NCBI RefSeq assembly: GCF_000346465.2
Contig: NC_034016.1
Location: 20,075,548 to 20,139,547, forward strand
Direction of reading: 5' to 3'
Length of the DNA stretch: 64,000 nucleotides
DNA from: Prunus persica
Taxonomy: Eukaryota > Streptophyta > Magnoliopsida > Rosales > Rosaceae
The notes beneath the pieces were generated by a model, which was not told the DNA's origin, searched no databases, and was given only the letters and a program-made list of their open reading frames with translations. The position numbers were made by a program, and so were the translations under genes. Shown here in pieces: positions 46,091-50,020 of the stretch. The first letter of the stretch is position 1; each line of letters begins with the position of its first letter.

Positions 46091-49000
46091 ATGGCTTTTA
46101 ATTCAGTTCCACCTGGTTTTGCGTCTCGTACATCCTTCGTGCTGAAGAGGATGGAAAAAGTTGAAGAAACTAATGGTGTCAATGTTTCTAAACAAGAGCC
46201 AATCCAGATGGACTCCACATCTGACCTGACTGACATGGATAAACTGAAAAGATCTCTTCAGCATAGGCCATGGATACTTTTCGACCAAAGTGATTACAAC
46301 TCAGAGGAACCTGAATCTGAACAGTTTGATATGGTCTATTCTTCTCTTCTTCCCTTTTTGCCTGCCTGGGTGTGAATGCATATTTGCTGCTGTCAAACAT
46401 AAAACTAGCTTGCACTTAAATCTGAACTTGTGTTATGCATGCTGCAAATAAGCTGCTGATGAGGAGCTTGTTTATATGTTTATAGAGGAATATTTTCTTG
46501 TTGCATGATTCATCACCAGCTGAATCTGGTTAGAAGTTGTTATAATTATATCCCTTTTTTTTCCAGGATCCCCCTGCAAAAACTTGCCTCCCTAAAGGCG
46601 TTACTCATGGATGTCCAGATTGCAGTGATTGTCTGAAGGTTGATTTTCATTCACTAAGTTGATTCTCTTCCCTTTGAATTGTATAGTTATTAGGTACTAG
46701 TTTCAGCCTTTCCATTTGCCTTTGATTTTCTAAAATCATTACCATGTCAGGTTCCCTATTTCACTTAATGTTTGTGATTATTGATTGAATTCTTGGAATA
46801 GGTAACAGGAAGGTGGCGTCCTGAAGATGCAAGAATAGATGTCCTTGAAGAAGCACCTGTTTTCCACCCAACAGAAGAGGTTAACCTTTTTCTGATTTCT
46901 GTGACACTGCATTATTTCATGAGTCATAGATGTTGTCTGGATCTTTTGTTTGAATGCTCACTTTTTTGCTTATAAAATATCAGTCTGAAGGAGTTTGAGT
47001 TTTTCCTGCAGGAATTTAAAGACATGCTTAAATATATTGCAACTATACGTGCAAGAGCAGAGCAATATGGTATTTGTCGTATTGTTCCTCCTCCTTCCTG
47101 GAAACCTCCATGTCTTATTAATGAATACCCCATATGGAAAAGATCTACATTTTCTACCCATATTCAGCAGATTGATGGGCTACGAAATCAGAGTTCACCG
47201 AGTAAAATGGTTGGCTTTTATGAAAGCACAAAAAAGAAGAGGAGAAGAATCTTGGGAGTGGGTTTGGACAGTGGATCTACCTCAAGTCCAGGTGAAACAG
47301 GACATTCATATGTCAAAGGCTTTGAACCAGAACCTGGTCGAGAATTCACTCTTGAGAATTTTAAGAGATATGCAGCTGATTTCAAGAGTCAATATTTCCG
47401 TATAAGTGAAGTCAGAGGCAGGCAAGAGAAGTGGGTTCCATCACTGGAGAATATTGAAGCTGAATATAAACGTATTACTGAGAACCCAACTGAAGAGATT
47501 GAGGTACACTCAGAAATTGGGATGATCATTTTTTAATTTTTTCTTTATTTTATTATTTTCTATTGAGGCCGTTTGTGCTGTTAATTGTCATCTTGGTGTA
47601 CTGTGAAGGTGCTTTGTGGTGATAATTTGGAAACTAAAGCTGTTGGCAGTGGATTTCCAACAGTATCCAAAGATTCCAATCCTTTGGCAACGTCAGATCA
47701 CCCTGAATTTTTAGCATCAGGCTGGAACTTAAATAATCTACCCAGACTGCCTGGTTCTCTTCTTTCTTTTGAAAGCCATGACACTTGTCATATTTTGTTA
47801 CCTCGGGCTCGTGTGGGAATGTGCTTTTCATCTTTTCATTGGGTAAGATTTGATATGGCTCTCATGTTGCATCTTTTGCAGAAAACGTTACATATGTTTT
47901 AGAAAGTTGGATAATGTATTCTTTGAAACTTTTAAATGTGATAATCAATGGCTCTCAAACTTGTATTCTTTTGAGACGCATTTTTAAGTATCTTTACTTT
48001 TCTATGGACAATGTCTGTGGTTGGCTTGTCTTATTTTAGTTTGTTGATCATGCTTTGATTTTTTGAGTCCTTTTGAACAGAAAGTTGAAGAGCACCATTT
48101 ATACTCATTGTCTTACACACATCTCGGTGCTCCTAAAATATGGTATGGTGTCCCTGGGAAATATAGTGTTAATTTTGAGGCAGCCATGAGGAGCTCCTTT
48201 TCAGAATCATCATCAGAACAGCCTGAATTGCGAAATAGGCTGGTGAGCTGACAAACTTATGATTCCCCCCTTCCCCTCTGTGTTAAAGTTAAAACTTTAT
48301 TTTTAGTAAAATATTTTTCAAGAGATATTAACTTCTCTGTTGTCTTTTGTTAGTAGAGACCTTTTATATCATATATTTTTTTGGTACAGGTTAAACAATT
48401 ACCGCCCTCCACACTGAAATCACAGGGCATACCAGTCTTTCGTTGCATTCAGTCTCCTGGAGAGTTTGTTCTTGTCCTTCCAGGGGCTTATCATTCGGGA
48501 TTTGATTGTGGCTTTAATTTTTCTGAGACAGCATGTGTTGCTCCCCTAGACTGGTTGCCTCATGGACAGGAGGCTGTTGAACTTTACTGTGAACAGGGGA
48601 GGAAAACATCTATATCCCATGATAAGCTGCTGCTTGGAGCAGCTAGGGAAGCTGTGAGGGCACAGTGGGATTCACTGTTTAGGAAGAACACCTCAGATCA
48701 TTTCCTCTGGAAAGATGCCTATGGAAAGGATGGGATCTTAACACATGTATTCAAGGTAATTCCTCAGATATTGTCCCGCCATATTACTGTCAACTGCAGA
48801 TCCTGCTTGTATCCTATATGGTTTTGAACAATGGTGGACTGACATTATTGCTTCATATAGCAGTTGTATTTTTTTAATTAAAGGGATTGTACTCTTAAGT
48901 TTGCTTTTTCCCCTGCTTTCTCTGGTTTATGTTTTGCACTTAGTGAGATAATTTAACCGTCTTCAAACTTAGTTAAAGTCGATGGCCTGATTGTTTTTCT

Positions 49001-50020
49001 TTTTAAAACTCTTTTCCACCTTTCTTTTTTATGCAGTCACGTCTCAGTTCTGAAGCCATTTGCCGGAAATATCTTTGCAAGTCTAAACAGTCACGGAGGA
49101 TGAAATCAAATTTTGATGCCACAAGCAAAAAGGAGTGCAGCATTTGTCTCCGTGATCTGCATTTTTCTGCGGCAGCTTGTCCTTGTTCTGCAGACAGATA
49201 TTCATGTCTGTTACACGCAAAGCAACTGTGTTCTTGTGCTTGGAGTGACAAGGTTTTCCTCTACCGTCACCAGATCGATCATTTATATCTACTTCTTGAA
49301 GCTTTGGAAGGAAAGTTAGATGCAGTCTTCAAATGGGGCAAAGATGATCTTGGATTGGCTCTGCACGTGCATTGTCCAAAGAATATTGGGCATGTAGATG
49401 GTCCAACCACTAATGCTGAGAAAACTAAAGGGAAAGAGTCCATGTCTCAAGATGCATTCAGGGCAGAATTGAAGGCACGTATGCTGCAATCTATAATCTC
49501 AAGTAAGTTGAAAGCAAACGATCATCCATCTGGAACTCTTGATGCTGCAACAGCGAATGTGAACGATACAAATTCTGTGTCTAGCATCCAGGCAAAGGTG
49601 AAGGCGCATGTGCTCCAATCAACAATCTTGAATGAACAGCAAGCAAAGGAGATTATCACAAGCACAACAGGAAATAATGCTCCTCCTCTACCGACAGAGG
49701 CGATGAAGGGGACAAACAATACTCCGCTTCCACCGACAGAGGCAATAGCGGAGACATCCGATGTTTCATCTGTAAGTACAAGTGAAACAAGTTCCTCAGA
49801 CTCTCAGGATTTAATCCCAGATCTTGACTTTCTATTCCGTGGAAAAGAACAAGCAGCCTGTCCTCTCGAGAAAGGCAGTGTTCCTGGGAAGCTATCGAAA
49901 GGTGGTCATCCAGCCGACAATGGGGCATCTTCGAACCCTTTGGTTTCAGAGAATCAAACTTCAAGAAAAGCAGGCTCTGAGAGTGGAATTGTTCTTCTTA
50001 GTGATGACAGTGATGGTTAG
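46091..50020 (+). CDS. KDM5/JARID1-class JmjN-JmjC-C5HC2 protein lacking FYR domains (JMJ19-like), probably catalytically impaired
   Basis: Eight coding exons in phase: 46091-46333, 46567-46638, 46802-46879, 47012-47503, 47609-47842, 48081-48242, 48390-48755, 49037-50020, giving 876 residues. JmjN is at about 123-164 (APVFHPTEEEF... to PPPSWKPPC), JmjC at about 340-505, and the C5HC2 zinc finger at about 583-640 (CSICLRDLH...CSCAW). FYRN/FYRC domains, present in JMJ14/15/16/18, are absent, as in the JMJ19 branch. Family members remove methyl groups from H3K4 in the nucleus using Fe(II) and 2-oxoglutarate. Here the usual WHVE reads WKVE (Lys374) and the conserved Asn of the S-x-N motif is Ser384; Glu376, Lys392 and His462 remain. 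The change sits at the exon 5/6 join, but no alternative join restores His. The tail has two related KARMLQS/KAHVLQS repeats and ends in GIVLLSDDSDG, a SUMO-interaction-like motif. Confidence 0.92.

Follow-up and report, generated by a model that had tools for sequence, protein, structure and literature searches.

The window analyzed here is a 64,000-nucleotide stretch of Prunus persica (NC_034016.1, positions 20,075,548 to 20,139,547), whose forward strand carries, at 46,091 to 50,020, a gene of the JMJ19 clade of KDM5-type JmjC proteins. In the encoded 876-residue protein the first iron ligand is Lys, the methyl-lysine pocket is rewritten and the JmjN-JmjC-C5HC2 core is kept, and the explanation that we regard as likely overall is that of a dead KDM5-type protein retained as a non-enzyme. 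The gene has eight exons, each of a length divisible by three, separated by seven introns (1299 bases in total, from the exon table) that are all in phase 0 and bounded by GT-AG (7/7), as proposed in an earlier note made from the sequence alone. A Pfam scan of the protein at E 0.001 returned JmjN, JmjC and C5HC2, which that note had described as well preserved, and nothing beyond them, with no match to ARID or to FYRN and FYRC, the domains of the JMJ14/16/18 group. In window coordinates, the features are as follows:

46091..50020, + strand, JMJ19-like gene running from ATG to stop in 8 exons and encoding 876 aa (reading frame, exon join and GT-AG splice sites verified)
46091-46333, 46567-46638, 46802-46879, 47012-47503, 47609-47842, 48081-48242, 48390-48755, 49037-50020, + strand, the eight exons
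46856..47089, + strand, JmjN, residues 124-157, in exons 3 and 4 with intron 46880-47011 inside (Pfam PF02375, E 9.5e-18; coordinates from the exon table)
47789..47812, + strand, changed pocket residues H356, R361 and R363 (JMJ703 G376, W381, Y383), by alignment, counted from exon 5 with residue 296 at 47609
47813..48530, + strand, JmjC, residues 364-474, in exons 5-7 with introns inside (Pfam PF02373, E 1.7e-33)
48081..48242, + strand, exon 6 with the active site, covering residues 374-427 in frame (exon table)
48081..48083, + strand, AAA codon for K374, at the place of the first Fe(II) ligand His (JMJ703 H394), by exon join and alignment
48087..48089, + strand, codon for E376, at the second Fe(II) ligand, which is kept (JMJ703 E396)
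48111..48113, + strand, S384 codon TCT, position of the 2-oxoglutarate-contacting Asn (JMJ703 N404)
48135..48137, + strand, K392 codon, 2-oxoglutarate Lys position, kept (JMJ703 K412)
48492..48494, + strand, codon for H462, at the third Fe(II) ligand, which is kept (JMJ703 H482), aligned, with AYHSGF from residue 460 and residue 428 at 48390
49136..49288, + strand, C5HC2 zinc finger, residues 583-633 (Pfam PF02928, E 1.3e-12), with eight Cys/His columns
49988..50014, + strand, C-terminal SUMO-interaction-like motif IVLLSDDSD, residues 867-875, followed by one Gly codon and the stop

The exon 5/6 join reads F371-H372-W373 and then K374-V375-E376, as the earlier note had it, and S384 completes the S-L-S that it reported in place of S-x-N. 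Against sequences of solved structures the protein matched Arabidopsis JMJ14 best (E 4e-162), then rice JMJ703 and KDM5B, and in all three printed alignments (5ykn, 4igo and 5fv3, respectively) W-K-V-E faces W-H-V/I-E. JMJ703 numbering was anchored on H394, and Y321, G376, W381, Y383, E396, N404, K412, L447, H482, A494 and N496 all fell on the expected letters; these alignments agree with the residue correspondence to human KDM5A given in the note and with its statement that the active-site Glu, Lys and His are kept. The junction is not a modelling slip, because two paralogues in the same genome share the boundary with His (slashes mark intron ends): TGG/GTAAGA...ACAG/CATGTTGAA in L014 (C6) and TGG/GTATGT...ACAG/CATGTTGAG in L016 (C4), both with a CAT codon where the window gene, TGG/GTAAGA...ACAG/AAAGTTGAA, has AAA. 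Eight other AGs are listed in intron 5, none of which yields His, and the two in frame (exon starts 47907 and 47976) lead into stop codons, which rules out an acceptor restoring His, again as the note claimed. WKVEE is also found in P0001 (96% identical) and P0002 (Prunus yedoensis, 88%), so the Lys is no private allele, and since the sampled core-eudicot relatives share the loss of His, a long-retained non-enzyme is the probable reading, and not a sequencing error. We found no point in support of an error, an allele or a wrong junction and give this explanation virtually no credence. As a side observation, a further KDM5-type copy, L010 (G000:C8:2586006-2589554, at 493-2448), lacks the intron at the Trp/ligand boundary, reads WLVED with the ligand His replaced by Leu, and has its frame broken by stops, which has the look of a processed pseudogene derived from a gene of the JMJ14/18 type.

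The changes reach beyond the iron ligand. In JMJ703 numbering the window protein carries Y321C, G376H, W381R, Y383R, H394K, D397E, N404S, N486D, A494T and N496C, and is unchanged at F391, E396, K412, W414, L447, H482 and N490. The iron triad His-x-Glu...His of active KDM5/JARID1 proteins reads K374, E376 and H462, the methyl-lysine pocket G376, Y383 and N496 with the H3K4-specific W381 reads H356, R363, C476 and R361, and the 2-oxoglutarate Lys is present as K392. Among 143 proteins compared, the 76 with His are identical at the listed active-site positions bar one N404S, the 64 without it vary at most of these positions, and 3 have a gap. According to the available passages of the rice JMJ703 study (PMC3554631), activity was abolished in the assay by H394A, G376A, W381A, H482A/Y, E396A, K412A and L447A, Y383A left residual H3K4me2 activity, N496A was still active for me2/me3, and N404A was still active with no clear effect. 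The earlier note had offered the His-to-Lys and Asn-to-Ser changes together as evidence for lost function; the first holds, H394A being dead, while the second is weak evidence and not diagnostic, because JMJ703 N404A stays active. The rewritten methyl-lysine pocket, missed at that stage, is the stronger evidence, with the changes at G376 and W381 adding to that of the His, and from these residues we judge it very probable that the protein does not demethylate H3K4.

Phylogenetic trees built without the active-site columns place the window protein within one clade with Arabidopsis JMJ19 (PKDM7A), apart from JMJ16, and the protein shows both marks of this clade, a non-His ligand 1 and no FYR domains. 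Protein searches took the best 120 matches each. One tree used 126 of 146 rows, the rest being >95% identical, and in it the Rosaceae rows and the window protein form one clade; for the other, 239 rows were reduced to 185 by dropping those with <70% of the core or >90% identity and by excluding by hand P0152 and P0153 (non-homologous models), P0082 (skipped exon) and P0031 (a gap before the ligand, its ligand Lys being readable). Rows that are not in the tree were assigned by their nearest row alone. A single change of the His/non-His trait is seen on the 126-row tree (Shimodaira-Hasegawa-like approximate likelihood ratio test, SH-aLRT, 100), and likewise on the 185-row tree. In the 114-row clade ligand 1 is K in 75 rows, R in 25, N in 5, T in 3, E in 1, I in 1 and a gap in 4, with His in 0/110 rows that have a letter, and outside the clade it is His in 71/71 rows of the 185-row tree. 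Rows without His come from, among others, Rosaceae, Fagales, legumes, cucurbits, Malpighiales, Sapindales, Malvales, Brassicales, Liquidambar, Kalanchoe, Malania, Spinacia, Cornales, Ericales, Asteraceae, Lamiales and Solanales; among the rows fetched, His is kept in those of Proteales, Ranunculales, Tetracentron, Magnolia and monocots that have a letter, and no member of the clade was seen outside core eudicots among the best matches of each search. This distribution suggests that the JMJ19 clade separated from H3K4 demethylases of the JMJ16 type ahead of the divergence of the sampled core eudicots and that the first iron ligand was lost once on the tree; a time near the core-eudicot hexaploidy would be a plausible date. 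The alignment of orthologues proposed in the note showed that in A. thaliana JMJ19 (P0250) ligand 1 is Lys and ligand 3 is Tyr, which excludes a kept His there, a point left open by the wording of the accessible part of a B. napus paper (PMC8019318). In P0183, P0201 and P0217, two of which come from Spinacia and Chenopodium, ligand 1 is Thr and the Glu is gone as well.

Within the clade, the 13 active-site positions average 26.3 changes, against 9.8 in other columns that never change outside it; the rate of change exceeds that of the median column at N404, at F391 (a 2-oxoglutarate position, like N404) and at most methyl-pocket positions, and each zinc ligand column has 0-1 change. In the alignment this looks like a catalytic pocket released inside a kept fold. 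The clade also evolves faster than JMJ16 in 253/253 pairs from 23 species, pairs that are not independent, with a median ratio of 2.55. The note's phrase "constrained but not as a demethylase" is kept for the probable loss of function, given the absence of His in the clade and the dead H394A mutant, and for retention, and its word "constrained" needs a qualifier, in that the clade runs about 2.5x faster than the active paralogue in the same species, yet has near-unchanged zinc ligands. Such speed and the eroded active site would also fit a gene in slow decay, under relaxed constraint after duplication and with no present role, as would models from four genera that miss exon 6. Decay is nevertheless improbable in our view, as frames are open in many orders, the zinc ligands are near-invariant, 60 columns are invariant among 43 sequences, short contigs are consistent with transcripts (805 aa on 2861 bases, for example), and JMJ19 is expressed in Arabidopsis and raised after cold acclimation, as stated in passages of PMC4068201 and PMC7020257. 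The short contigs include the lgn rows P0023 (that of 805 aa, WKVEE), P0036 (743 aa on 2554 bases, WRVEE) and P0044 (778 aa on 2870 bases, WKVEE), which leave no room for introns as long as those of the window gene and would fit spliced RNA; P0001, on 4320 bases, could be genomic. The missing residues 374-427 are exactly those of exon 6 in five annotated models (Malus, Citrus, Ricinus and two Gossypium), and three further rows gapped at the ligand have other gaps. Ligand 1, the Glu and the 2-oxoglutarate Lys all lie in this exon, and recurrent in-frame skipping of it is possible.

Residual activity of another kind, in which a K-E-H or two-ligand site binds metal and demethylates or hydroxylates a different substrate, would agree with the E376, H462 and K392 kept in the window protein and with E396 in 102/110 and K or R at K412 in 107/110 clade rows with a letter. 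We hold it to be very improbable, because ligand 3 is Tyr in 41 of the 114 clade rows (His in 65), H482Y kills JMJ703 (same passages of PMC3554631), and the 2-oxoglutarate and methyl-pocket positions are among the fast-changing ones. A reader of H3K4me3, whose JmjC pocket would bind the methylated tail and leave the mark, could draw on the probably kept fold and on the JmjN-JmjC-zinc finger fragment of JMJ703, which in the accessible text binds H3K4me1/2/3 peptides at ~13-16 micromolar (PMC3554631). However, the methyl-binding G376, Y383, A494 and N496 and the H3K4-specific W381 have become H, R, T, C and R, which puts a basic cluster at the place expected for the trimethyl cation, and reading through this pocket is quite improbable because the pocket is rewritten. 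Of the role "scaffold or chromatin reader" given in the earlier note, the scaffold half may stand, and the reader half, as far as H3K4me3 goes, is not supported.

The protein ends in IVLLSDDSDG, and motifs of the [VI]I[LI]LSDD type resemble SUMO-interaction motifs. We counted tails of at least 40 residues (84 of the 114 clade rows and 59 His-type rows) with a tight pattern that was set after viewing the tails, so that its shuffle expectation is not unbiased: it occurs in 24/84 clade tails (0.9 expected from shuffles), a median of 2 residues from the end, and in 47/59 His-type tails (1.5 expected), a median of 416 residues from the end. The looser first pattern gave 34/84 vs 6.8 expected and 48/59 vs 14.2. 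The tight motif is missing in 60/84 clade tails, Arabidopsis P0250 included, and the simplest reading of these tails is that the clade was truncated just behind an inherited motif, with the FYR part lost, and that the motif itself then disappeared in many lineages. The tail also holds, at approximately 49451-49647, two similar stretches, RAELKARMLQSII and IQAKVKAHVLQSTI, which are perhaps an internal duplication; the P0001 model has two helices near them (684-709 and 728-753). Beside the gene, a minus-strand gene at 50275-51450 encodes SIS and CBS domains and resembles arabinose-5-phosphate isomerase.

A retained non-enzyme remains our preferred explanation. It would work non-catalytically, either as a folded scaffold on chromatin or by competing with active JMJ14/16-type enzymes, with the core serving partners or chromatin and the end motif serving SUMO-modified proteins, an account to which we give an even chance. 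More tentatively, and at somewhat less than an even chance, the site may be metal-free, with a Lys/Arg side chain replacing the charge of the iron and forming an internal salt bridge with the kept Glu; E396 is lost in 5/10 rows without a basic ligand 1 vs 3/99 with one (Fisher 1e-4). The fold is probably kept, as a model of P0001 built on a 142-sequence alignment has a predicted local distance difference test score (pLDDT) mostly >90 in the core and matches JMJ14. JARID2, which is in the solved-structure sequence list, was absent from the 50 structural-match rows shown, an absence that means little. Several points weigh against this explanation. The remaining E376, H462 and K392 make weak metal binding possible, and the speed-up of the whole clade is also compatible with relaxed selection. 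The alignment behind the fold model held active relatives, so it is no independent proof of folding, and a model from clade members alone (43 sequences) reached a poor mean pLDDT of 48.9 and was set aside. The Lys-Glu covariation is not significant on the tree, where joint change occurs on average in <2 of 6 independent pairs, and similar p values are seen for other columns. A passage of PMC9549339 states, citing others, that JMJ14-JMJ19 demethylate H3K4me1/2/3. Separately, ligand 3 is still His in each of the 25 tree rows that have Arg as ligand 1, and Tyr occurs with Lys, Asn or a gap; the covariation of Lys/Arg with Tyr/His is not significant on the tree.

Among known proteins, Arabidopsis JMJ19 (At2g38950, P0250) resembles the window protein in its JmjN-JmjC-C5HC2 layout with no FYR listed, its Lys at ligand 1, its changed pocket and its clade, and differs at ligand 3 (Tyr), at the 2-oxoglutarate Lys (Arg) and at the Phe (Gln), positions where the window protein keeps His, Lys and Phe; a strawberry table in the part of PMC4822149 available to us pairs AT2G38950 with FV_JmjC2. 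Birch BpJMJ03 likewise has the first ligand His changed to Lys, but its third His is Tyr and that of the window protein is kept; in the accessible passages (PMC8555302) it appears as a single member of a family survey, without a clade-wide interpretation, and by their description it would belong to the clade. JMJ16, JMJ14 and rice JMJ703 share the fold and the three domains, JMJ14 being the best match by sequence and structure, but their triad is His-Glu-His and their pocket intact, and FYRN and FYRC are listed for most of the long rows fetched. Passages of two surveys give the KDM5 group as His-Glu-His, one adding exceptions (PMC5136575, PMC9029850); contrary to that description, soybean P0080 has Lys at ligand 1. 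Animal JARID2 is, according to the text available from PMC3034028, JARID1-related, thought to be catalytically inactive, retained and associated with Polycomb repressive complex 2, and it carries ARID, unlike the window protein. It is an unlikely though conceivable extension that core eudicots independently evolved their own JARID2 counterpart, a KDM5-derived metal-free scaffold with a Lys/Arg-Glu pair at the iron site, a methyl-lysine cage turned into a positive pocket (H356, R361, R363, K374 and K392 of the window protein) that may hold an acidic partner, and a SUMO-interaction-like end tying it to SUMO-modified chromatin, set against active JMJ14/16.

Parts of this picture were already known: databases name several Brassicales relatives probable, putative or plain inactive JMJ19, and the Lys/Tyr of BpJMJ03 is given in the birch passages. 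A clade-wide treatment of the His loss was not found in the open literature searched, a scope outside which most subscription papers, figures and supplements fall, and the clade-wide picture is what is added here. Many clade members, including that of Prunus yedoensis, are named "lysine-specific demethylase JMJ16", and papers reason from a demethylase; passages of PMC12120899, for instance, discuss a Camelina flowering-time single-nucleotide polymorphism in a JMJ19 orthologue as a possible histone demethylase effect. Removal of JMJ19 would therefore be a direct test of a non-catalytic role. Across the sampled core eudicots the loss has the look of a single old event that has been retained, which would make this a class of pseudo-demethylases and not one damaged gene.
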